A stretch of 64,000 bases of DNA, from the NCBI RefSeq assembly GCF_004214795.1, contig NZ_CP035928.1, positions 62,001-126,000 of the forward strand, in the 5' to 3' direction. The number at the start of each line of letters is the position of its first letter. Position 1 is the first letter of the stretch. Under the pieces are notes generated by a model. The model was given only the letters and a program-made list of their open reading frames with translations, ran no database searches and was not told the DNA's origin. This document shows, one piece after another, positions 50,750-64,000 of the stretch. Origin of the DNA: Malaciobacter pacificus. Its GTDB lineage: Bacteria; Campylobacterota; Campylobacteria; Campylobacterales; Arcobacteraceae. The position numbers and the translations under genes are program-made.

Positions 50750-50826
50750 GCGTCTATGGCTCAACTGGATAGAGCTCCCGGTTTCGGCCCGGGTGGTTGT
50801 GGGTTCGAATCCTACTAGGCGTGCCA
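50750..50826 (+). tRNA. tRNA-Arg, anticodon UCG
   Basis: A 77-nt cloverleaf. The acceptor GCGTCTA pairs with TAGGCGT (two G-U pairs), D stem GCTC/GAGC, anticodon stem CCCGG/CCGGG with loop TTTCGGC (anticodon TCG at 50784-50786), T arm GTGGG-TTCGAAT-CCTAC, discriminator G and an encoded CCA (50824-50826). It reads CGN arginine codons. It sits immediately upstream of the pilus-like cluster, a position often used by genomic islands, but no repeat of its 3' end was found in the window. Confidence 0.95.
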
Positions 50827-51079: not shown

Positions 51080-51634
51080 ATGCCTTATCTGGTATCTTCA
51101 ATTATTACTGTTGTTGCTGCAATGGTGATACTTTTAACAAGATATGAAGCAGATGATAGTGCTATTATGTCACAAATTGAAAAGATGAAAACAATGGTCT
51201 CTATGGTTGATGGATATGTAAATACATATATCGAATCAGGAGGAATTTTAAGTGATATTAACTTTCAAGTTTTAGCAGATGCTGGTATCTTAAGTAATGT
51301 TGGTACAAATCAAAATAACACTAGATTAAATCCTAGTGATGGTTCTGGAACAATAGAAACAACTATGAGTCTACCAAATGATGATGTTATTTGGCATATT
51401 ATTCCAAATAAGTTAAACGCAGACTCTTATAAACTTTTAGTTGATTTTACAGGAGATTCTTCTTTGATGAGTAAATCTAGATTTTCAGAAGGATTTATAG
51501 GTAGAGAGTATTGTGAAAAGATGTTATTTGGAGAGTTATTAAGAGAACAAGATCAATTTGATGGTACAGATGATTTTGAAAATGATTCAGGTTCAAATGA
51601 TGATGGAAGATTTGTTTGTATAGTATATAAATAA
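51080..51634 (+). CDS. leaderless pilin-like protein 1
   Basis: A 184-residue protein. Residues 1-20 (MPYLVSSIITVVAAMVILLT) are one hydrophobic helix, followed by an amphipathic helix (to about 48) and a segment with DINFQVLADAGILSN, the same order as in type IVb pilins. There is no prepilin leader, no Gly-cleavage site and no Glu5; an in-frame TAA lies just upstream, so no leader is possible. AGGGA precedes the ATG. The C-terminal tail is Asp/Asn/Gly-rich with two late cysteines. It starts the secretion/pilus cluster. Probably a minor pilin. Confidence 0.65.
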   Translation: MPYLVSSIITVVAAMVILLTRYEADDSAIMSQIEKMKTMVSMVDGYVNTYIESGGILSDINFQVLADAGILSNVGTNQNNTRLNPSDGSGTIETTMSLPNDDVIWHIIPNKLNADSYKLLVDFTGDSSLMSKSRFSEGFIGREYCEKMLFGELLREQDQFDGTDDFENDSGSNDDGRFVCIVYK

Positions 51635-51679
51635 ATTTTGGTGTAGCTAAATGCTACTTTAATATGGGCTGTAGGTAGG

Positions 51680-51685
51680 TATAAT
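51680..51685 (+). promoter_or_regulatory. putative promoter (-10) of pilin-like gene 2
   Basis: TATAAT in the context TAGGTATAATCTTAAC lies 29 bp before the ATG at 51709. It separates the second pilin-like gene from the first and suggests independent, perhaps strong, expression. Confidence 0.55.
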
Positions 51686-51708
51686 CTTAACATAAAAAGG
51701 GTCGAAAA

Positions 51709-52371
51709 ATGCCACAACTGATAGCAATGGTAATCGTAGTAGTTGGAGCTATGATATATATGTTCCAAACATTTGGTGGAACTGGTGATAAAATTGAAGG
51801 TATTGCACAAAGAACAAGCATTATTACTGAAATTAATAATATTAGAAATGGTCTACAGTTAGCTGTAAGAGCTGGAGATATTACTAACGATGGTGCAGGA
51901 AATGTTACTACTTTAAGAGATCTAGCAGTTTTAGGTTATTTCGCAGATCAAATGAATGATGAAATTGCGGATAATACTGATAATGCTCTTTTAACAAATG
52001 GTAATGGAAATGCATATAGTGCTATTTCATTTGGTGGTGAAAATAACCCAGGAATGATTATAAATTTAGTAGTTGGTGCAGTAGATACTAGACCAGGAAT
52101 TAGGGTAGAGTTTTTAAATGAACTTGCAACAAATGCAGATTTTTTAGAAACACAGATATATAATGATTTATCAGCAGTTGCATCAATTGACAGAACAACT
52201 ACAGATGGTTCTTCAGTTGCAATCGACGGTAATGGTGATACACCTGATGGTACAAGACCTGTAGATAATGCAGCTACTGTAGGTACAGTTGCTGCAGGTA
52301 CAGCAACTTTAACAGATGGAATTTTTACAATTTATTTTAAAGATATGCCTGAAAGAATAGCAAATCCATAA
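51709..52371 (+). CDS. leaderless pilin-like protein 2, likely major pilin
   Basis: A 220-residue protein starting MPQLIAMVIVVVGAMIYMF, one hydrophobic helix, then an amphipathic helix (about 25-55) and LRDLAVLGYFADQM. The remaining part is Asn/Asp/Gly/Thr-rich. The layout parallels the mature part of type IVb pilins such as BfpA, but there is no leader peptide, no glycine cleavage site and no Glu5; a TAA stands in frame just upstream. It has its own promoter (51680) and its own strong terminator (52376-52403), so it may be the abundant subunit. No cysteines. Confidence 0.65.
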   Translation: MPQLIAMVIVVVGAMIYMFQTFGGTGDKIEGIAQRTSIITEINNIRNGLQLAVRAGDITNDGAGNVTTLRDLAVLGYFADQMNDEIADNTDNALLTNGNGNAYSAISFGGENNPGMIINLVVGAVDTRPGIRVEFLNELATNADFLETQIYNDLSAVASIDRTTTDGSSVAIDGNGDTPDGTRPVDNAATVGTVAAGTATLTDGIFTIYFKDMPERIANP

Positions 52372-52375
52372 TAAA

Positions 52376-52403
52376 TAATATTTAGGCTCACGCCTAAATA
52401 TTA
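52376..52403 (+). terminator. terminator after pilin-like gene 2
   Basis: A 12-bp perfect stem (TAATATTTAGGC / GCCTAAATATTA) with loop TCAC, 4 bp after the stop codon. It isolates the candidate major pilin gene from the rest of the cluster; read-through would supply the downstream genes. Confidence 0.75.
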
Positions 52404-52480
52404 CAGTTTACACAAAACAAAACCTAAGTACTAAATAATTTAGCATTTAGTTTTTATTTTTATTAAAAAAAGGTTTATAA

Positions 52481-53206
52481 ATGTTCGCAACAAAAATATG
52501 GCTAGCATCGGCACTCACTGTTACAGCTATATTTACTGCATCAGCAGTTTATAAATCATATAGTGACTTACATGAAGCAAAACAAATCCAAGAGCACTTT
52601 GAAATAATTACAGATATAAAAACCCTTCTAGCCAAACAGTATAATAAAAATCCAAATGATATTACAAGAGATGAAATAATAGCCTATTTACCAAAGGGTG
52701 GAAACTGGGATAAAGTTCTACTTTTAGATAGAAACCAAGATAGCACTTTAAGTGAAGATGAACTTGTAAATAATGATGGAGAAATTATAATAAATGAAGA
52801 TGAAAAAGTAAAACTTTTTGCTTTAAAAGCAAAGTTAAATGATACATTAAACACTGCATCAATGAGTGCTTCAAATGGAACTTATACTGTCAATATAGCT
52901 CATAATAAAACCATAAAACAAAAAGATAAAACAGTAGAGGATAGTTTGGAAAAAGCTATTTATTATGCTACTCAAGAGCTTATATATGGAACTGAAACAA
53001 ACTACTCAGGTGTTGTTACAAATATGGTAGATAACTTTACTCCACATGATGATATTTATCATGACTTAAGTGATATAGGGCTTTCAACTGATAGTGAAAC
53101 TATAAAGAAAAAGAAATACTTCCAAAGTTTACTAAAAAGTAGGCTAGAAAAAAGTCTAACTCCAATTGAGAGCAAGTTATATACTCTTTTGAAAGATGAA
53201 TTATGA
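52481..53206 (+). CDS. pilin-like protein 3 with EF-hand loop
   Basis: A 241-residue protein with an N-terminal membrane helix (about 5-24, IWLASALTVTAIFTASAVY) and then an amphipathic helix, as in pseudopilins. Residues about 83-94 (DRNQDSTLSEDE) form a canonical EF-hand calcium loop with Asp1, Asn3, Asp5, Ser9 and Glu12. The helix-then-DEIIAYLP element parallels the other two pilin-like proteins. There is no prepilin cleavage site. Its last bases overlap the next start (ATGA). Likely a minor pilin or tip-complex member. Calcium binding is inferred. Confidence 0.6.
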   Translation: MFATKIWLASALTVTAIFTASAVYKSYSDLHEAKQIQEHFEIITDIKTLLAKQYNKNPNDITRDEIIAYLPKGGNWDKVLLLDRNQDSTLSEDELVNNDGEIIINEDEKVKLFALKAKLNDTLNTASMSASNGTYTVNIAHNKTIKQKDKTVEDSLEKAIYYATQELIYGTETNYSGVVTNMVDNFTPHDDIYHDLSDIGLSTDSETIKKKKYFQSLLKSRLEKSLTPIESKLYTLLKDEL

Positions 53207-53931
53207 TTAGATTATTAACTCTTTTATCAATACTATTTTCAATATCTTTTTCTATGGATTTAACAAAATTTGAAGATAGACAAATTATGATTGATGAGAT
53301 AAAAGCAATTGTTTTAAAAGAGGAAGAGACAGCAAAGGCTTATGAAGAGTATATTTTAGAAAATTATGATATTCCTACATTGTTAGAACTTGAAGGTGCT
53401 AGTTATTTAGGAAGCTCTTTTTTAAGTGGAATTGATACTACTTATTTTGTGAAACTTGCCTTTGATGGAATTTCAAAACTTACATATAGCCTAAAAGAAG
53501 AAGTGAAAAATGACAACTATTTAAAGTCACTTTATGAGAGTAATACCTTTAGAAAAAATAGTTTTTATTCAGGTGGAAAAATTAATTTTATAGTTAAAGA
53601 TGACTTTGCAAAATATATAATTTATTTAGTTCAAAATCAAACAGCAGGGATTGATGGAATTATTGATTGTAGTTTAAATTTATTAGGAGTTTCTCTTAGT
53701 AAGTATTGTAAAGATGGTGATAATATCTATATTTATGATGACTTACAAGTAAATAAGCTTATGTATTTTTATAAAGAAAATTTTAAAAAAGGTCCAATTA
53801 TTATAACTTCAGATAGAACACTTCAAACAACAAATGCAGAGTTTGATTTTATCCCAAAGGGTGCTGTTTTATATGATGAGGATGGAATTAAATATGTAAA
53901 GACATCTACAGGAATTGAGGAGATACAATGA
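53203..53931 (+). CDS. secreted paralogue family member 1 of the pilus-like cluster
   Basis: A 242-residue protein with a signal peptide (about 1-17). Residues 30-75 form a shared module: KEEETAKAYEEYILENYDIP, then LGSSF. The same module is found in the proteins at 53928, 54666 and 63172. The C-terminal part ends with a strand-rich segment (IPKGAVLYDEDGIKYVKTSTG). Two cysteines (about C164 and C176) may pair. It overlaps both neighbours by 4 bp (ATGA), so translation is coupled. Family unknown to me. Confidence 0.7.
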   Translation: MIRLLTLLSILFSISFSMDLTKFEDRQIMIDEIKAIVLKEEETAKAYEEYILENYDIPTLLELEGASYLGSSFLSGIDTTYFVKLAFDGISKLTYSLKEEVKNDNYLKSLYESNTFRKNSFYSGGKINFIVKDDFAKYIIYLVQNQTAGIDGIIDCSLNLLGVSLSKYCKDGDNIYIYDDLQVNKLMYFYKENFKKGPIIITSDRTLQTTNAEFDFIPKGAVLYDEDGIKYVKTSTGIEEIQ

Positions 53932-54665
53932 TAAAGTTTATTTTATTTATTTTTTCATTTTCTATTATTTCATTTGCAGATGAAAATCAAATGTTAAAAC
54001 AACAAAATGTTCTTCTTGTTCAAAAATTAATTGAGAGTGAGGAAAAAATAGCCAAAAATTTTGAGAGATATATTCTTGAAAAGTATAAAATACCAACTAT
54101 GAGCAATCTATTAGAGGATGAGTATTTAGGCTCAAGTTTTTCATTATCAAATAAGTTTGGCTTTGATTTAAGTTTTAAAAGTAGTTCTAATTTACAGTTA
54201 TATTATGCAATAACAAATGAAAATGACCCAAATGATTATAAAAATTTACTTTATAAAAGAGATTTATACAGAGAATATACTTCTGTATATTTAGAAGAAA
54301 TTAGTGCTGATGAAATTAACTACAATAATTCGTTTACAGAAATTTTATTAAAGAGTGATGAAGCTAAAACTTTACACTCAATTTTAAAAGCAGGTTATAC
54401 TATTGAAGAGAGTTGCCCTTCACCTTCTGGTACCTTAGTAGATAAGTATTGTAGTTTAAATGACAGTGCTATAAGATGGTATAATAGTAGTTCTTTTTGG
54501 ATTGAATATAGTAAAAAAGATTTTGATAGAGGTAATGTAACAGTTTCTACAAGTTCTCTTTTAAGTGATAGTAGAATAACTTCACTACCTATTGGTACAT
54601 ATATTTATATAAATAATGGTGCACAATATGTTAAATTAAAAGATAGTATTTTAAAGGTGGATTAA
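53928..54665 (+). CDS. secreted paralogue family member 2
   Basis: A 245-residue protein with a signal peptide (about 1-17, ending SFA). The shared module is SEEKIAKNFERYILEKYKIP then DEYLGSSF. The C-terminal part is strand-rich and ends LPIGTYIYINNGAQYVKLKD, matching the IPKGAVLYDEDGIKYVK ending of the 53203 protein. Two cysteines in the second half lie at similar positions as in member 1. The two are full-length paralogues in tandem. Function unknown. Confidence 0.7.
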   Translation: MIKFILFIFSFSIISFADENQMLKQQNVLLVQKLIESEEKIAKNFERYILEKYKIPTMSNLLEDEYLGSSFSLSNKFGFDLSFKSSSNLQLYYAITNENDPNDYKNLLYKRDLYREYTSVYLEEISADEINYNNSFTEILLKSDEAKTLHSILKAGYTIEESCPSPSGTLVDKYCSLNDSAIRWYNSSSFWIEYSKKDFDRGNVTVSTSSLLSDSRITSLPIGTYIYINNGAQYVKLKDSILKVD

Positions 54666-57560
54666 ATCAAAAAGCTAGTTTTATTTTTATCAATTATTTT
54701 TGTTAATTTTATTTTTGCTAATTCTCAAAATGTAGCATTAATGAATGGTATCAAAAATGTTATTCAAAAAGAAGAGTTTATTGCAATAGCAATAAATAAA
54801 TATATTTTACAAAATTTAACTGTACCTAAAAAATTAAATGTCGTAAATTCAAAATATGAATTAGACTGGAATGAAATGCTAAATGATGAGTATTTAGGGA
54901 CTAATTTTAATAAATATAATCCAATACTAAAAAGTGATATTCTAGTAGAGTTTGATAGCAAAAATAATGCCTATATAAAAGGTGCAATAACAGAAACTAC
55001 TGAGTATAAAGAAGAGTATAAATATCTATATAACTTTTATACAAATAAAGTATTTAGAGTAAATACAATAGCCCCAATTGATAATACAGATACAAATTTA
55101 CTTAATGGTTCCCTTGTAGTCTATTCAGATTTACAACAAAAAATTATAAATCTATTAAATGATAGCCAATCTATTTTATACCCAAGTCAAAACTGTACAG
55201 CAGGAACATATTTTTATGAAATACAAGATGAAGAATTAATTTATAAATATTGTAAATCACAAAGCTATAAAATAGAGGTTTATCAAAAAGAACCTGTGTA
55301 TGTAGAAGAGGATGATGATTTAAGTTTTATAAAATCAGATATTGGCTCAAAAGGATATGTAAAAAAGAATGGATTCTGGTATGAATATTATTATCAAGGA
55401 GATACTAATAGTCCTTGGATACCAACTGGTTCAGGAAGTATTTTAACTGAAAACTTAGATAATACTACAATTGAAGATAGGATCTTATCTTATATCCCTG
55501 ATTCAAAAGCACTAACTATTAAAGAAGCAGGTGGTTGTATGCTTGCAAATGGTGATATTTTTTGTTGGGGAGATAATTCTTATAAAAGAGCTGGAATTGA
55601 TACTTATGGTCAGATTGATACAAGCCTATCTCCTGATTTTGTAAATACTCCTGTGATGTTAAAAGTTAATATAAATGATTCAGTAAGAGCTAATAAAAAA
55701 TGGTATAACAATCCATATAGAATTAAATTTGAATCAATGTTTATGAATGGTAAAAATGTATGTGGAACTTCACCAATTTATGATATAGATGGAACAAATG
55801 AGAAGTATGGAGGGGATTTATATTGTAATGGTAGTGTTGATTCTATGTATTATGAAACATCAGCTAACTCAATTCAAACTTCAATTTTAAGTAAGAATAA
55901 ATTCTTTGCATGGGGAAAAGATGATTTTGAAGATAATGCCCCTCAAACTATAAATGATGAAGAAGATGGTGGCCCAAACTACAATGATAGACCTATTAGA
56001 GATGAGATATATCTAACTGATGTTGCAATGACATCTGATACAATTGCTGTTTTAAGTGATGATGGAAAAATCTATACTTTAGGCAGAAATTATAATGGTT
56101 TGTTAGGTATTGGAAGTAATGATAAATTTATCACTCAATATGAACCTGTACAAGTACAAGTTGATGCAGGAGTATTTTTTGACCAAATATTTGTTCTTAG
56201 GGATATAGATACTTTTGGTGCAATTGATAATAATAAAAACTTTTGGATTTGGGGAGAAAGGGATGGCACTTTTTTATCAAAACCAACAAGATTAAATGAT
56301 GGTGATATGCAAATAAATCCTGATTTAATTTTTGTAAATAGTAAAGAGTTTTTATTCCAAAATTTAAGCTCAAAAGTATTTTATAGAACAGATGGCCAAA
56401 ATGATATTGTCTCAATTAGTACGAGTGATATTCCAAAAACAGCAGTTAGTGCAACAATAATTGAAGAAGATGGAGTTTGGAAATATTTATATGTTGATGA
56501 AGATTTTGATTTAAAAGGTACACAAGCATTGTTAGAGTGTAGAAATAAGCGAGATTTTAGATGTAGTGCGGCATTAAATATACAAATTTTTGACCACGCT
56601 TTGCAAAAATTAAATAATGAATCTAATTTTTTAAATGTTTCTACATATAAGTTAGATGCAACCGTTGAAGAAGTTTATGAAAATTTTGAAGGCTCTTCTT
56701 CTACTGTAAATACATGGACATTAAATACATATAGTGATAATAATTTTACAAACCTAACATCTTCTGTTACCCCACCTTTATATAATCCAACAGAAAGTGT
56801 ATCCTCTGATGATAAGGTAAGAGTTGACCCTACACAAGTTTTAGGAAGATTTAGAATTGGATATCAATCTGTAGATAAAACTTATGATTTTGGATCTTCT
56901 TATGCAAATAGAGATGTAGTTCTTGAGTTTGATTTTTATGAAATTGATTCTTGGGATATGGAAAGATTTAATGTTGTAATAAATGGTGAGAGATATACAG
57001 ATGATGGGTTTATTCATGATGACCATCAAGAGTGGCAAGATACAAATGACACAGGAATTTATACACTAAACTTAGGAACTATGTATGGAAGTAATACTAG
57101 TAGATCTAAATATAATGATGAAAAATATCATTATAAAATAAAAACTAAACTAGACTCAAATGGAAAATTAGAAGTTAAGTTTAGAGTTAGAGAGTTACAA
57201 GCTGGTGAATATGGAGATAATAGTTGGGATTTTGGGCAGGCTTTAAATGATGAATCTTGGGCTATTGATAATATACATGTGAAAGTAAAAGAAAAAGATA
57301 AACATTTTACATGTGCAATAACAGGAATTAGTACTGATTCACAGATGTATTGTTGGGGAGTTGTGGGAAGAAGTTTACCTATTTTAAGCACTTCATTATA
57401 TAATATGTATAAAATAAGTACTTTAAATAAATTATTTATTTCAACAAATGCAGACGCTAATAAACAAATGACTTTAGATGAATTTGACATAGATGGAAGT
57501 CTATTTTTGAAATATCCCACGTACATTGGTGGATTTGACTATCCATTTTATTTTAAGTAA
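54666..57560 (+). CDS. large secreted RCC1-like propeller protein with apparent AUC start
   Basis: About 964 residues. The first ATG (54741) lies inside the mature part; reading upstream gives the signal peptide KKLVLFLSIIFVNFIFA before NSQNV. The previous gene's TAA (54663-54665) is directly before it, so the only start is ATC 54666, with AGGTGG just upstream. The shared module follows (IQKEEFIAIAINKYILQN, EYLGTNF). Then come RCC1-like blades: GGCMLANGDIFCWGDNSYKR, SDDGKIYTLGRNYNGLLGIG, and a late MYCWG. A jelly-roll-like insertion (EFDFYEIDSWDMERFNVVIN, about residues 725-880) interrupts the propeller. Likely a surface adhesin or cargo. Confidence 0.7.
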   Translation: MKKLVLFLSIIFVNFIFANSQNVALMNGIKNVIQKEEFIAIAINKYILQNLTVPKKLNVVNSKYELDWNEMLNDEYLGTNFNKYNPILKSDILVEFDSKNNAYIKGAITETTEYKEEYKYLYNFYTNKVFRVNTIAPIDNTDTNLLNGSLVVYSDLQQKIINLLNDSQSILYPSQNCTAGTYFYEIQDEELIYKYCKSQSYKIEVYQKEPVYVEEDDDLSFIKSDIGSKGYVKKNGFWYEYYYQGDTNSPWIPTGSGSILTENLDNTTIEDRILSYIPDSKALTIKEAGGCMLANGDIFCWGDNSYKRAGIDTYGQIDTSLSPDFVNTPVMLKVNINDSVRANKKWYNNPYRIKFESMFMNGKNVCGTSPIYDIDGTNEKYGGDLYCNGSVDSMYYETSANSIQTSILSKNKFFAWGKDDFEDNAPQTINDEEDGGPNYNDRPIRDEIYLTDVAMTSDTIAVLSDDGKIYTLGRNYNGLLGIGSNDKFITQYEPVQVQVDAGVFFDQIFVLRDIDTFGAIDNNKNFWIWGERDGTFLSKPTRLNDGDMQINPDLIFVNSKEFLFQNLSSKVFYRTDGQNDIVSISTSDIPKTAVSATIIEEDGVWKYLYVDEDFDLKGTQALLECRNKRDFRCSAALNIQIFDHALQKLNNESNFLNVSTYKLDATVEEVYENFEGSSSTVNTWTLNTYSDNNFTNLTSSVTPPLYNPTESVSSDDKVRVDPTQVLGRFRIGYQSVDKTYDFGSSYANRDVVLEFDFYEIDSWDMERFNVVINGERYTDDGFIHDDHQEWQDTNDTGIYTLNLGTMYGSNTSRSKYNDEKYHYKIKTKLDSNGKLEVKFRVRELQAGEYGDNSWDFGQALNDESWAIDNIHVKVKEKDKHFTCAITGISTDSQMYCWGVVGRSLPILSTSLYNMYKISTLNKLFISTNADANKQMTLDEFDIDGSLFLKYPTYIGGFDYPFYFK

Positions 57561-57568
57561 GGAAAAAC

Positions 57569-59221
57569 ATGCGTAAAGTATTGAGTATCACTTTTATAGT
57601 ATCACTGATTATCTTATTTTCAGGCTGCAGTCCTAAAAGTTACCATAATGAGATGTTAGATAACACAAAAAGAAGCCTTGGGAAAAAGGATTATCAAGAT
57701 ATTAAAACCTCTTATACAGAAGAGTTAGTAAATGAAGTAAAAAAGCAAAAAGAGTATATTTCAATTTTAGAAGATAAATCTTTAGGGGATATTTTAAAAG
57801 AAATGGAACTATTAGATGGTAATTTTTACTTTCTAAAAAGCAGTGATATTCTTATTCCTAAAAGTAGAATTAAAATTCATAGCATGAGTGAATTAAATCA
57901 CTATTTAAATGCTGTATTAGATAAAGAACTTTTTGTAAAAAAAAGTGGCTCAATTTATCTTGTAAAACTTTTAAATGTAAGTGAATCAAAAAAACTATCA
58001 CTTGATAGAATTCCTTTTAAATTAAATGGTCAAATTTCAGTAGAAGAGTTAATAAAACTAATTACAGCAAGCTGCGGATATGAAGTATCAATTGGAAATT
58101 ATATAAAAGATAGATTTGGATTTCAAAATAGTATTGTAAATATCAGTTCTACAAATTTAAAAGATGCATTAAATTCATTAGCTTATGCAAAAAATGTTTA
58201 CGTAGATATTGATTATGATAAAGAGATGATAAATATTAGTAGATATAAAGATATGGTTGTTGAGTTAAATATTCCTCTTTTAGATATTAAATCTACAAAT
58301 GAAACATCAAGTCAAGAAACATCAGGTGAAAGTAGTATCAAAAATAGTTCTCAAATAGTTTTATATGATGAGCTTGATAAAATGTTAAAAAATATAATAG
58401 CAACTGATTCAATCTCTACATATCATATTGATAAAGCAAGTGGATTGATATTTTTAAAATCAACTAGAAGTGTTGAAAATGCAGTTAGAACTATAGTTAA
58501 AGCATATGAAACAAGTTTTGCTAAAGAAGCAACTATAGAGTTTGAAAGAATTGAGTTAGCTTTAAATAAAAGTAGAGAGTATGGCATTGGTAGTATTAGT
58601 GATAGTAGACAAACAAATCAAGATGCAGGTGTATTAAAATCTATCGGTGCTGATGGTGCAATAAATTTTACAAGCGATAATGCAACAAGACTTTTACAAA
58701 TTGCAGCAAAAGCAAATAATGAAATAGGAACAATCTTAAATTATAGTAAAAATATAATTGTGTTAAAAAATAATATCCCATCTGTTCAATCAATTAGTCA
58801 AAATACTGATTATATTGAAAAAATTGAAACAACAGTAACTGAAGGTGTTAGTACATCTGAAGCAACAGTTAATACTATTAAAGATGGAACTTCTGTTACA
58901 GCAATGGCTAAAATATCTAGGGATAAAATATTTTTAAATATTACACCAACAATTAAAAAACTAATTGAAATTACTGAAAAAACAGTTGGTGATTCAACTA
59001 TTCAATTACCTCAATACAATGACCAAAGTTACAATATTTCAAGAGAAGTAAAACTAGGAGAGACAGCAATCGTTGGTTCTATTATAATTCATGATGATGC
59101 AAAAGAGTATCAAGGGATTTTACCTTTAGAAGGTTTTGCAATTGGTGGGGCTGATTCAAAATCTTATGTAAGAAGAGAAATTGTGTACATTGTAACACTA
59201 AGAAATATTAAAGGCTTTTAA
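57569..59221 (+). CDS. lipoprotein secretin (type IVb pilus PilN/BfpB-like)
   Basis: A 550-residue protein with a signal peptide ending in the lipobox ILFSGC (Cys20). The N-terminal half holds small alpha-beta domains (for example VEELIKLITASCGYEVSIG, then NISSTNLKDALNSLAYAKNV). The C-terminal half has the secretin pattern: IVLKNNIPSVQSI, VTAMAKIS, LNITPTIKKLI and LGETAIVGSIIIHDD. It should form the multimeric outer-membrane gate of the machine. The lipoprotein form and size fit R64 PilN / BfpB rather than GspD, which is longer. Confidence 0.85.
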   Translation: MRKVLSITFIVSLIILFSGCSPKSYHNEMLDNTKRSLGKKDYQDIKTSYTEELVNEVKKQKEYISILEDKSLGDILKEMELLDGNFYFLKSSDILIPKSRIKIHSMSELNHYLNAVLDKELFVKKSGSIYLVKLLNVSESKKLSLDRIPFKLNGQISVEELIKLITASCGYEVSIGNYIKDRFGFQNSIVNISSTNLKDALNSLAYAKNVYVDIDYDKEMINISRYKDMVVELNIPLLDIKSTNETSSQETSGESSIKNSSQIVLYDELDKMLKNIIATDSISTYHIDKASGLIFLKSTRSVENAVRTIVKAYETSFAKEATIEFERIELALNKSREYGIGSISDSRQTNQDAGVLKSIGADGAINFTSDNATRLLQIAAKANNEIGTILNYSKNIIVLKNNIPSVQSISQNTDYIEKIETTVTEGVSTSEATVNTIKDGTSVTAMAKISRDKIFLNITPTIKKLIEITEKTVGDSTIQLPQYNDQSYNISREVKLGETAIVGSIIIHDDAKEYQGILPLEGFAIGGADSKSYVRREIVYIVTLRNIKGF

Positions 59222-59224
59222 AAA

Positions 59225-60241
59225 ATGAGTATGTTCTCTGATCCTTATGAGTCTTTTTTATTAGATTATTTGATTACTAAATTAGAAAATGGTTCTAATA
59301 CTAGAAGAGCATTACTTTTATATGGTGAACAAATAACTAAAGAAACAAAATTTAAAAAAAGACTTAAAGCTGCAATTAGAGATATGGAAATAGGTAAACA
59401 CTCACTTGAAGCAATTTTACATAAGCATAAGTTTTTAAACTCATTTCAATATAGTTTAGTAGTAAATAGTACAAGTACAATTGATGGATTAAAACTTGTA
59501 CAATCATTTAAAAAGGCAAACTCAAATCTATTAACTAAAATGATAAATCCTATTTTTGTACCCTTAGGAATAATAATAGCAACATTTTATGGATTGATTT
59601 TATATCTTGGAATGCTTGAAAAAGAGCTTGTAGGTTTGAAAAAATTAAATCCTGATGTAGAACAATTTCTAGGAATCCCTGGCTATTTTACTTATGATAT
59701 TGCATATCTAGGACTTGGAATATCTATTTTTATTACAGCATTTATTCTTTTTGGATATATTTATTGTGAAAAATATAAACCTGGATGGTTATATGGTGTT
59801 TTTAAAACACAAGCCTTTTCTGATGGAAGATTTATGTTTAGAATTTTAAATGGTATGCTAAGTGCTGGTATATCTTTTCATAAAACATCATTGATTTTAT
59901 CAAAAGACTATTTTAAAGTAGGTCTTAGACCATTTTTTCACGAGTTATCAGATATTATCAATAGAAATAAAAAACTATTTATAGTTTTTGAAAAATATAA
60001 TTTTCCTACAATTATAACAGCAGATATAAAACTTTCAGAACTAAGTAAAACAAGTTTTGTAGAAGTAACAAAAGCACTATATCAAACTTGTGATACAATG
60101 TATGAAAAAAATATTAATTATATGGTATTACAATGGAGATTTTTCTTCTGGTTAATTGCTATGTTAGTAACAGTTATTATTGGTTCGGATGTTATTAACT
60201 TAGTTATTAGTACATTTACATTTAAAACTTTATATCAGTAG
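59225..60241 (+). CDS. GspF/PilC-like inner-membrane platform protein (PilR-type)
   Basis: A 338-residue protein with two weakly similar cytoplasmic helical domains (FKKRLKAAIRDMEIGKHSLE and FMFRILNGMLSAGISFHKTS) and three membrane helices (about 115-133, 155-178, 310-332). This T2SSF-domain layout is shared by GspF, PilC and R64 PilR. It connects the ATPase to pilus or pseudopilus assembly. Located 4 bp after the secretin gene. Confidence 0.82.
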   Translation: MSMFSDPYESFLLDYLITKLENGSNTRRALLLYGEQITKETKFKKRLKAAIRDMEIGKHSLEAILHKHKFLNSFQYSLVVNSTSTIDGLKLVQSFKKANSNLLTKMINPIFVPLGIIIATFYGLILYLGMLEKELVGLKKLNPDVEQFLGIPGYFTYDIAYLGLGISIFITAFILFGYIYCEKYKPGWLYGVFKTQAFSDGRFMFRILNGMLSAGISFHKTSLILSKDYFKVGLRPFFHELSDIINRNKKLFIVFEKYNFPTIITADIKLSELSKTSFVEVTKALYQTCDTMYEKNINYMVLQWRFFFWLIAMLVTVIIGSDVINLVISTFTFKTLYQ

Positions 60242-60253
60242 GCAAAAGTAGTT

Positions 60254-61942
60254 ATGTTAGGTAAATTATTTAATAAGAAAACATCTTTAAAAGTGTTAAA
60301 AGGAATCAAAAAAAGTAATAAGAAAAAAGAGTCTAAAAATATTTTTGATTCAAAAAATTTAAAAAGAATTTTTGAAGAACAAAAAAAATCTTTTATTAAA
60401 TTAATAAACAATAAAGAAGATGCAGATACAGACTTAGCTATTTTAATTGAAGATATGATTAAAGATAAATACAAGTTAAGTGGTGGATTTGGAGACTTAA
60501 TTGCAAATGAAGAAAAATATGAAGAGTTTGTAAGAAGTCTTGGATATGAATATTATGCAACTTATAATGAATTATCTCAATATTATCAAGATACATCTTT
60601 TCAACTTGATGAAAAAAAATTAGAGTTTTGTACAAGTATGTACATAATAACTTTAGAAGATAAAAAAACAAAAAATAAAGTTCTTGGTATTAGAGATGTT
60701 GTAAACTTAGACTTTGATGTTTTAAGTAAGTTTTACTTCACAAAAATTGTAGTTTTAGGAGAGGGAGTATTATCTTCAGTATTTGGTGAAGATAGAGAGA
60801 TTATCTTTGGTTCAAATGCTGATACAGATAATGATGAAGAGATTAATAAATATTTTGACAAAATGATGGGACAAGCTATTTTATTAGGAGCTTCTGATAT
60901 TCACATTCAAAAAACAAATAGATATGCAAGTCTTTGGTTTAGAATCGATGGTATTAAAGTTGAGATGGGTACTATGCCTATTGCAATTGCAAAGACTTTA
61001 AAAAGAAGACTTGTAACAATGGCAGACCAAGAAGATTCTGATTATGAATCAATTAATGGTGTTATTAATTATGAGTATGGAAAAAAATCAATAAAATTTA
61101 GACTTGGTTTAATTAACTCAAAACTAAACTTTTCACTTGTTATGAGGATGATTGGTGGTAAAGGTGTAGTTTCTCATAAACTTGAGGGATTAAACTATCC
61201 AAAAGAGTCAGTTGATATACTAAAAAATCTTACAAGATATGCAAATGGAATGATACTTATCACAGGACAAGTTGGTTCTGGTAAAACACACTTAATGTAT
61301 GCCCTATTAAAACAACTTGCACAACAGCAACAATATGTTGTAACCATTGAAGATCCAGTTGAGTATGTTGATGAAGCCTTTTTCCAAATTGACTTATCAG
61401 AGTTTGCAAGTGCAAGTGAAGAGTTTAAGTATGGTTATCCTGAAGCGGTTGTTGATATTTTAAGACAAGATTCAAATATTATTCTTATTGGTGAGACAAG
61501 AGAGCCTCAAACAGCTTCACAACTTGTAAATGCAGCAAACTTAGGACAGTTAGTATTCTCTACAATGCACACCAACTCAGCCCCTGCAACAGTGTCAAGA
61601 ATGACAAGTTCATTAGGAATTAATGAAGGGGATATTGTTGATAACTTAAGAGGAATAGTATCTCAAAGACTAGTTAGAAAACTTTGTGGTTATTGTAAAA
61701 CAGAAGATGGAGAAGGTGGTTATAAAAAAGTTGGATGTGATGAATGTAACAATAGCGGATTTAAAGATAGGGTTCCTATTGCAGAGGTTGTAAGATTTAA
61801 AATTGGTCATGATGGTGATTTCGAAAATCCAGCTGAATATATGACAGTTGAGAAAGCTTGTATGGCGCAATATCATGCTGGATTAATTACAAAAGAGGAT
61901 GCGATGGCAATTATTAGAGGGGAAGAAGTATGGTACGACTAG
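60254..61942 (+). CDS. GspE/PilB-type secretion ATPase
   Basis: A 562-residue cytosolic hexameric ATPase. Walker A is ITGQVGSGKTHLMYALL (about 336-352), the Asp box is VTIEDPVEYVDEAFFQID, Walker B is NIILIGETREPQTASQL and the His box is FSTMHTNSAPATVSRM. A tetracysteine zinc motif (CGYCKTEDGE, then GCDECNNSGF) follows the His box, marking it as an assembly-type GspE/PilB protein. N-terminal residues 1-150 are divergent and charged. It powers extension of the pilus or pseudopilus. No second (retraction) ATPase is in the window. Confidence 0.92.
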   Translation: MLGKLFNKKTSLKVLKGIKKSNKKKESKNIFDSKNLKRIFEEQKKSFIKLINNKEDADTDLAILIEDMIKDKYKLSGGFGDLIANEEKYEEFVRSLGYEYYATYNELSQYYQDTSFQLDEKKLEFCTSMYIITLEDKKTKNKVLGIRDVVNLDFDVLSKFYFTKIVVLGEGVLSSVFGEDREIIFGSNADTDNDEEINKYFDKMMGQAILLGASDIHIQKTNRYASLWFRIDGIKVEMGTMPIAIAKTLKRRLVTMADQEDSDYESINGVINYEYGKKSIKFRLGLINSKLNFSLVMRMIGGKGVVSHKLEGLNYPKESVDILKNLTRYANGMILITGQVGSGKTHLMYALLKQLAQQQQYVVTIEDPVEYVDEAFFQIDLSEFASASEEFKYGYPEAVVDILRQDSNIILIGETREPQTASQLVNAANLGQLVFSTMHTNSAPATVSRMTSSLGINEGDIVDNLRGIVSQRLVRKLCGYCKTEDGEGGYKKVGCDECNNSGFKDRVPIAEVVRFKIGHDGDFENPAEYMTVEKACMAQYHAGLITKEDAMAIIRGEEVWYD

Positions 61943-62679
61943 TAATTACTGATTTTGCTAGTAAAGAAGATAATGAATCATTTTATGTAAATGATGAATT
62001 TGATGCTTTAACTCAAATATATACATATCAATCCTTTAAAAAAAATGCAGTATATTTATCAAAATATGAAGTGCATGATGAAATATACTCTTTAAATTTG
62101 CTTTCAAAAAAACATTTGAAAAAAAATCAGTTTTTAATTCATATTGCAGATGGGGAATATATTATTTTATTTAATCATAAAACAGTTTATTCTGCAAAAA
62201 TAAATCAAAACTTTATTACTGATGATATGATTAAATCGATCTTAATTACAAAACATATTGTAATGCTTTCAAGTGGTGGAGCTATTGATAAACTCTATTA
62301 TGTAATAAACTCTAAATATAAAAGTGCTATTGAAAATATTTTAAAACAAAATACAAGAAATGATAAAGGTGATGTTGTTGCGCAATCCTTAGGAGAAATC
62401 AAAGATTTAGTAAGGCCATTAGTTGAATTAGATACTTTTAAAGGTCATGCTTTTAAAAACTCATTTAGCTTGATTTTTGTTGCTGGAATTTTGTGGTTCA
62501 TGTTTTATGGCTTAGATGTTTTTAGTAATAGTTTATTTGGTAAAGAGTCTTTAGATAGTTTAAATAGAGAATTAAAAGTACAAAACAGATTGTTAAAAAG
62601 GCAAGAAGTATTATATAATAAGAGTTTAAAAGAGTATAAAGATTTGACTGATTGTATAACTGTGAAAGGTACAAACTAA
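61930..62679 (+). CDS. GspL/PilO-like bitopic protein of the pilus-like machine
   Basis: A 249-residue protein. Residues 1-170 look like a cytoplasmic domain of mixed alpha-beta type, then one membrane helix (LIFVAGILWFMFYGLDVF, about 183-200) is followed by a short periplasmic coiled coil (LNRELKVQNRLLKRQEVLY). This order matches GspL, PilM-PilN fusions and R64 PilO-like assembly proteins that link the ATPase to the alignment complex. The start overlaps the ATPase gene by 13 bp. The family is not recognised by sequence; the assignment rests on topology and place. Confidence 0.6.
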   Translation: MVRLVITDFASKEDNESFYVNDEFDALTQIYTYQSFKKNAVYLSKYEVHDEIYSLNLLSKKHLKKNQFLIHIADGEYIILFNHKTVYSAKINQNFITDDMIKSILITKHIVMLSSGGAIDKLYYVINSKYKSAIENILKQNTRNDKGDVVAQSLGEIKDLVRPLVELDTFKGHAFKNSFSLIFVAGILWFMFYGLDVFSNSLFGKESLDSLNRELKVQNRLLKRQEVLYNKSLKEYKDLTDCITVKGTN

Positions 62680-62680
62680 G

Positions 62681-63175
62681 ATGGTAAGTATTAGTAAAAA
62701 AACTGTATCTTTAATTATTAAAATAGGACTAGCCGTAGTTGTTGTATATACTATTGGTTTTGCTTTTTATAAAATTGGTACGTATTATAAAACATATTAT
62801 GAAAAGCAAAAACTTACTCAAGAGTTACAAATAAAGAAAAATGAAACTAATAGTTTAAAAAGACAAATAAAATTAAATCAAGAAAAGATTGAAGATGTTA
62901 AAAATAGTTATATATCAAAGGATGAATTGGCAGTAAAAGTAAAAGATATTTTTGAAAGAATGTCTGTATTTGATTATAATTTAGCATTTTTAGATGCAAA
63001 AAAAATGTGTGTTGATAGGTATGTATTAATCACACAATTAACTTATCAAAGTGAACAAGGGAAAAAAGCAGGTGAGGGTATTTTATCATACATTGGTGAT
63101 ATGAAACAAAGTGATAAAAATAGTTCTTTATATTTTGTTGATTATGTGACAAAACCTAAAGGAATTAAAAAATGA
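62681..63175 (+). CDS. GspM/PilO-like bitopic protein
   Basis: A 164-residue protein. One membrane helix near the N-terminus (about 8-30, SLIIKIGLAVVVVYTIGFAF) is followed by a coiled coil (about 40-75, LQIKKNETNSLKRQIKLNQE) and a small periplasmic domain. Type II secretion GspM and type IV pilus PilO have this layout and pair with the bitopic GspL/PilN-like protein encoded 1 bp upstream. It overlaps the next gene's start by 3 bp (ATGA). Topology-based call. Confidence 0.6.
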   Translation: MVSISKKTVSLIIKIGLAVVVVYTIGFAFYKIGTYYKTYYEKQKLTQELQIKKNETNSLKRQIKLNQEKIEDVKNSYISKDELAVKVKDIFERMSVFDYNLAFLDAKKMCVDRYVLITQLTYQSEQGKKAGEGILSYIGDMKQSDKNSSLYFVDYVTKPKGIKK

Positions 63176-64000
63176 AATTAGTTATTCTTTTTTTTCTACT
63201 ATTTAATTTTTCTATTGCTACAAAGTTAGATTCCCTAAGTTTAGCAAAAATCAAGAAAACTGTTCAAAAAGAGGAAGAAATAGCTAAAGCTTATAAGAAT
63301 TTTTTGATAAATGAAGGTAGTGTACCAACTGTTGATAGTTTAATTACAGCTGGATATTTACCAAAGGGCTTTAGTAAAATTAATCCTTTTGGTAAGGAGA
63401 TGAAAATCTCATTAACACTTGATAATACAATTGTTAATAGCCTTCCAGATAGTATAAAAATTGATGCTTATGATCATTATTACAATGGAAAATACAGAGA
63501 GTATACAAGAGAACCTCTAAGTTCTACTAGTGATAATGTAAAAATATATTTAAGTAAAAAAGAGAAAATTATTTTTGATAGAATCGCAGAAATTGATAAT
63601 ACAAATCCTGTTAGTCAATATAGTTTAGAAGATGGTGTTCTAAATTGGTATGATGCAAATGGAAATTATAAATACTCTTTTGATGGTGAAAAAATAATTG
63701 TAGATGAAAGTGTAACAATTTTAAATTCATTAAAATCTTTTTCGACTGAGTTTAAAAATATGACATCTGGAGTTAGACATGCAGGACAGACTATTTTACA
63801 AGAAGATAATGGAGTAGTAGAAGATTATTTAGTAACAGATGATAGTGCTGTTGCTTTAAATGAAACGAAAAGAAATTATGGTGGAACAATTATTCAATTT
63901 ACAAGACGTGCTGGTGGAATGATTGTAAATGGAGATATTTATACTTGGGGAAATAATCAAAATAGAATTACAAGTATCAATAGTGATAATTTAACAGGAG
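63172..64000 (+). CDS. secreted paralogue family member 4 with RCC1-like start, cut by window
   Basis: ATG 63172 overlaps the previous stop. The frame is open to the window edge (276 codons), so the C-terminus is missing. A signal peptide (about 1-17, MKLVILFFLLFNFSIA) leads into the shared module VQKEEEIAKAYKNFL, then TAGYLPKGF. From residue 240, GGMIVNGDIYTWGNNQNR is the opening of an RCC1-like blade, as in the 54666 protein. It is probably a second large propeller protein. The paralogue pair flanks the assembly genes. Confidence 0.75.
   Translation, partial: MKLVILFFLLFNFSIATKLDSLSLAKIKKTVQKEEEIAKAYKNFLINEGSVPTVDSLITAGYLPKGFSKINPFGKEMKISLTLDNTIVNSLPDSIKIDAYDHYYNGKYREYTREPLSSTSDNVKIYLSKKEKIIFDRIAEIDNTNPVSQYSLEDGVLNWYDANGNYKYSFDGEKIIVDESVTILNSLKSFSTEFKNMTSGVRHAGQTILQEDNGVVEDYLVTDDSAVALNETKRNYGGTIIQFTRRAGGMIVNGDIYTWGNNQNRITSINSDNLTG

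Follow-up and report, generated by a model that had tools for sequence, protein, structure and literature searches.

Two neighbouring genes, here called P1 and P2, in a 64,000-nucleotide stretch (the window) of the complete 2.66 Mb genome of Malaciobacter pacificus probably encode filament subunits for a type IVb-like machine of the Arcobacteraceae whose pilins are made directly in their mature form. Type IV pilins are defined by a cleavable class III signal peptide (PMC10191384, PMC6668835), and they have been described as “invariably” made as prepilins with such a peptide, a hydrophilic leader ending in Gly or Ala (PMC10191384). Under this published definition P1 and P2 do not count as type IV pilins, but from their predicted fold and their operon they are expected to work like type IVb pilins. 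No description of naturally leaderless type IV pilins, or of this gene cluster, was found in the open-licence literature.

P1 (51080-51634, forward strand; 184 aa, MPYLVSSIITVVAAMVILLTRYEADD...) and P2 (51709-52371, forward strand; 220 aa, MPQLIAMVIVVVGAMIYMFQTFGGTGDKIEG...) begin at the ATG codons at 51080 (MPYLVSS...) and 51709 (MPQLIAM...), directly on a hydrophobic helix. Each ATG is preceded by a Shine-Dalgarno-like AAGGG, and in the window an in-frame stop lies 6 codons 5' of both, with no ATG, GTG or TTG in between. The initial annotation had claimed from the upstream stops that a longer start is excluded, and the orthologues agree with it. A genome scan for relatives, together with a survey of 104 genomes of the family, in which 25 had P2, yielded 25 distinct P2 proteins from the Arcobacteraceae, all with the same leaderless start. 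For 22 distinct orthologues the upstream frame was tabulated in full: 5' of the P2 start it stays open for 1-15 codons, with no alternative ATG, GTG or TTG in any of them; in L005 and L008 just one open codon separates the in-frame stop from the ATG. The N-terminus MPQLIAM is identical in 24 of the 25 P2 proteins, and the most divergent member (L031) reads MPLLIA. For P1, a possible start 2-11 codons upstream, which is not conserved, was found in 3 of 25 orthologues. Codons 2-50 of P2 specify 26 invariant residues in 24 orthologues, 22 of the 26 with synonymous variation, and the codons 5' of the start show neither conservation nor mutual resemblance. Judged from this pattern of substitution, P2 is under protein-level selection from codon 2 onward, and the leaderless start of P1 and P2 is, on comparison of the orthologues, neither chance nor a mis-called start.

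The Gly/Ala-[FMLI]xxxE cleavage site is absent from P1 and P2, as is Glu at position 5, the first acidic residue occurring not before position 23 in P1 or position 27 in P2; inspection of the sequences thus bore out both absences noted in the initial annotation. Glu occupies position 5 of the mature type IV pilin chain often, not always. No class III leader was found in the 25 P2 and 25 P1 sequences, nor was any match to N_methyl obtained in Pfam scans of all members. Every P2 orthologue (n = 25) has Pro at residue 2; in P1 this residue is Pro in 19, Ala in five and Gly in one of 25. When any of these three follows the initial Met, methionine aminopeptidase normally cleaves the Met off, and the earlier proposal that Met removal would expose Pro is consistent with the Pro at residue 2 across about 25 orthologues of each protein, with the P1 proportion just given.

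AlphaFold models were obtained from alignments of 9 sequences for P2 (pLDDT 71, pTM 0.71) and P1 (pLDDT 69, pTM 0.66). Both show an N-terminal helix of about 50 residues, broken near residues 23-26, followed by short helices, an antiparallel hairpin, a helix and further strands; the predicted helices (2-22 and 26-54 in P2, 3-23 and 27-52 in P1) include the hydrophobic N-terminal half of the long helix. As predicted models, P1 and P2 fit a lollipop fold with an antiparallel sheet as its head. VIA-align, whose Z values all lie below 8 and are not proof alone for models of moderate confidence, gave as the best match for P2 the ETEC type IVb pilin 9iuf (Z 7.9, 155 residues aligned, rmsd 6.8), with further matches to PilA1 (Z 7.7), TcpA (8uhf, Z 7.7) and PilW (Z 6.9). 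The best matches for P1 were PilW (Z 7.4), PilS of S. typhi (3fhu, Z 7.3), TcpA (8uhf, Z 7.0) and PilA1 (Z 7.0). In the P2 list pilins score from 7.9 to 6.8, the minor pilin PilE 4.7 and the first unrelated chain 3.8; in the P1 list pilins score from 7.4 to 6.8, PilA5 5.2 and the first unrelated chain 4.8. Residues 2-213 of the P2 model align on residues 1-208 of the 9iuf chain, with residue 2 on chain residue 1, and residues 33-184 of P1 align on 32-181 of PilS. Folds of the GspM/PilO type do not appear in the VIA-align lists, an absence that is no proof of difference. The initial annotation had named models lacking a pilin fold as grounds for refutation; the comparison of models that it proposed instead placed pilins at the head of both lists, Foldseek alone having returned only chance-level matches for either model.

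A comparison with hhalign relates P1 to P2 (probability 70, E 4e-5). No sequence link to known pilins was found by hmmsearch of PDB chains or by Pfam scans of all members, and hhalign gave no relation between P1 or P2 and the prepilins of the sister clusters described below. The pilin prediction is convincing because one family heads both VIA lists, the N-terminal numbering matches and the genomic setting agrees. P1 and P2 are predicted to have a type IVb pilin fold, with an N-terminal helix of about 54 residues in the register of a mature pilin. The earlier claim that the helix order resembles that of mature type IVb pilins is supported for the models of these two proteins; the grouping of a third protein with them as pilin-like is not supported.

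This third protein (52481-53206, forward strand; 241 aa) has an N-terminal hydrophobic helix and no leader, and it begins with MFATKIW, as the initial annotation had stated; its aligned relatives begin with MLGNIW or MFGNIW. Its outline resembles that of P1 and P2, but no link to them or to pilins emerged from hhalign or Pfam, and its candidacy as a pilin was dropped. The smallest form of the operon (L010, CAMCYD010000009.1), which contains P1, P2 and the machine, lacks the third protein and the RCC1 genes.

The cluster stands downstream of a tRNA-Arg gene (50750-50826) and runs past the window end, with all of the genes described here on the forward strand. The third protein is followed by two exported proteins of similar layout (53203-53931, 242 aa; 53928-54665, 245 aa), each with an apparent Sec-type signal and without a Pfam family, and by an RCC1-repeat protein (54741-57560, 939 aa; Pfam RCC1 1.3e-7), possibly a tip or secreted adhesin. 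A secretin-like lipoprotein (57569-59221), the putative outer-membrane gate, matches NCBIfam MshL (9.5e-13) and PilN (type IVb, 1.1e-7), both below the curated equivalog cut-off. The GspF/PilC-like inner-membrane platform (59225-60241) scores below the cut-off for Pfam T2SSF (E 0.023) and was assigned from alignment and from its place between secretin and ATPase; its length, TM layout and position fit GspF/PilC, it is 82-87% identical within most Arcobacteraceae, and its counterpart can be recognised in the sister clusters treated below. The assembly ATPase belongs to the GspE/PilB family (60254-61942; Pfam T2SSE, PF00437, 4.1e-65). It is followed by a one-TM inner-membrane protein in an N/L-like position (61930-62679), with no family match, and by an inner-membrane protein with a TM helix and a coiled coil in an O/M-like position (62681-63175), both placed by sequence and operon position. 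Another large protein, which bears a Sec signal and, by eye, motifs like those of RCC1, begins at 63172 and continues beyond the window end at 64000 (L002:4172-6346). The operon contains no canonical (N_methyl) prepilin and the cluster no PilT-type retraction ATPase; several N_methyl prepilins and two further T2SSE ATPases are encoded elsewhere in the genome.

Directly 3' of P2 lies a strong stem-loop with a 13-pair stem (52375-52404). Of 23 loci, 20 have a hairpin with a stem of at least 10 pairs after P2, whereas after P1 only 3 of 24 have one, and P2 is therefore probably the major, abundant subunit. The hairpin may limit read-through or stabilise the P2 message. In most relatives a strong hairpin is found in the same place, with a differing sequence.

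The search for a prepilin peptidase gene elsewhere, which the initial annotation had suggested, revealed PilD with a methylase domain in the source genome (G000:C1:2466498), where it serves at least the other, ordinary prepilins. An A24 prepilin peptidase (PF01478) was present, outside the cluster, in all 25 genomes with P2, and canonical prepilins were found in each of 10 sampled P2-bearing genomes. Since an A24 peptidase occurs in every P2-bearing genome, independence from this enzyme cannot be inferred from gene absence; the argument for it is that P2 has no site that could be cleaved. Six near-complete P2-bearing genomes (G005, G012, G015, G016, G027 and G029) lack the PF06750 methylase domain. 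Loss of the prepilin peptidase in these genomes was considered and discarded, PF01478 finding a short A24 peptidase in each. Only such short peptidases (frames of about 160-180 aa), lacking the N-methylase domain, occur there, and N_methyl-type prepilins are kept.

The cluster is also present in the named species Arcobacter vandammei and Poseidonibacter lekithochrous. A search of plasmids with P2 gave no match, and a candidate P2 from a phylum-wide search (G044, E 0.05) was rejected as unrelated by eye. Three sister clusters from the same bacterial order, the Campylobacterales, were found through the platform protein: L059 in G141, L060 in G044 and L063, the second cluster of G052. Like the leaderless cluster, they comprise a secretin, a pilin, a platform, two one-TM proteins, an ATPase and exported accessory proteins, and the GspF-like proteins of the two kinds of cluster match at about 1e-10 to 1e-17. 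They differ in their pilins, which are ordinary prepilins (N_methyl 1.2e-8) occupying the slot between secretin and platform, with leaders ending in G/FSLVE, G/ITLIE and A/ISMVE. G052 holds both kinds, a leaderless cluster (L061) and the ordinary one. The ATPase tree separates the two kinds: one branch, with support 95/90, sets apart the leaderless systems, and another, with support 100/99, the sisters. The simplest reading is a single leader loss in the ancestor of the leaderless systems, a direction taken from the near-universal occurrence of leaders and not from the rooting of the tree. In G015 the beginning of the platform gene and the rest of it lie on either side of a transposase-like reading frame (L062:6166-7368), and this copy of the system is probably broken.

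In the mechanism proposed here, the chain would insert N-in/C-out by means of its own N-terminal helix, and methionine aminopeptidase would remove Met1 and leave Pro1, which would give the chain the kind of secondary N-terminal amine that N-methylation gives an ordinary pilin. P2, as the major subunit, and P1, as the second or a minor one, could then be built by the GspE-family ATPase and the GspF-like platform into a filament or pseudopilus that would pass through the secretin; prepilin peptidase would cut neither protein. For the exported RCC1 proteins a place at the tip, or a role as secreted cargo, is plausible. The fuller reading, to which we give an even chance, is a natural type IV filament built from subunits already mature on translation, dispensing with leader, peptidase and Glu5, with the Pro amine replacing the N-methylated residue; it would have arisen from a leader-bearing ancestor and been kept across the Arcobacteraceae.

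P1 and P2 might instead be fixed, bitopic inner-membrane parts of the PilO/GspM or PilP/GspC kind, with a periplasmic domain that resembles a pilin, the filament itself being made from prepilins encoded elsewhere. The succession of an N-terminal helix that stays uncleaved, a further helix and a beta-beta-alpha-beta-beta arrangement would also suit ferredoxin-like assembly proteins, and canonical prepilin genes are indeed present elsewhere in the genome. This is nevertheless unlikely, given that the VIA matches are pilins, far ahead of unrelated folds in the case of P2, and that those positions in the operon are already taken by one-TM proteins, of which the O-like one (62681) shows no profile similarity to P1 or P2. 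The sister clusters, moreover, hold a prepilin where P1 and P2 stand, and the hairpin 3' of P2 suggests a product required at high dose.

If P1 and P2 are pilins, the prepilin peptidase could still act on them, either by removing a leader of two residues (in some P1 proteins M-A or M-G precedes Tyr) or by methylating the N-terminus. The Ala or Gly at residue 2 in 6 of 25 P1 proteins, residues that end a normal leader (PMC10191384), and the constant presence of an A24 enzyme in the genome would agree with this. We consider it quite improbable in view of the Pro at the same position in all P2 and most P1 proteins, and the six near-complete P2 genomes without PF06750 imply that an enzyme of this kind cannot methylate the N-terminus in every case. 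It is hardly credible that a non-standard start or a frameshift yields longer proteins with a leader that escapes notice: nothing was found in its favour beyond the general possibility of unusual starts, and the single open codon before the ATG in two orthologues, the lack of alternative starts, the good ribosome-binding sites and the unconserved upstream codons all stand against it. The preferred reading remains that of pilins translated in mature form.

Compared with type IVb pilins (TcpA, 9iuf and PilS 3fhu), P1 and P2 share the predicted long N-terminal helix, the short helices, the antiparallel sheet and the register of the mature chain, and a pair of conserved Cys residues near the C-terminus of P1 (Cys145 and Cys180) likewise closes the C-terminal region. 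They differ in lacking the leader, the Gly/Ala cleavage site, Glu5 and any recognisable sequence similarity. As in MSHA and type IVb machines, the secretin is of the MshL/PilN kind; the cluster contains no prepilin peptidase gene, which is also reported for MSH loci (PMC6668835). Here, by contrast, the secretin falls below the family cut-offs, the cluster has no PilT-type ATPase and the pilins are leaderless. The two-protein pilin of Geobacter and the helical Com pilins are natural departures from the standard plan in the globular head (PMC10191384), whereas the departure of P1 and P2 affects the leader.

The rule that pilins are cleaved before assembly may thus have a natural exception, kept across Arcobacter-type bacteria. 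If the leaderless machine works, the roles of the leader (orientation, holding in the membrane and timing of release) would be separable from the needs of assembly, and the machine would provide a test of the roles of Glu5 and of N-methylation, the purpose of which has been called a mystery (PMC10191384). Gene finders that seek prepilins, and signal-peptide programs, will miss leaderless systems.

A minor observation concerns the exported proteins of the cluster (53203-57560, 63172-64000 and L002:4172-6346), in which the signal peptide is followed by a common motif of the form KxEExxAxAYExYIL...PTxxxL..YLG. By eye, this motif resembles the second half of the pilin helix and the element that follows it, minus the membrane half.
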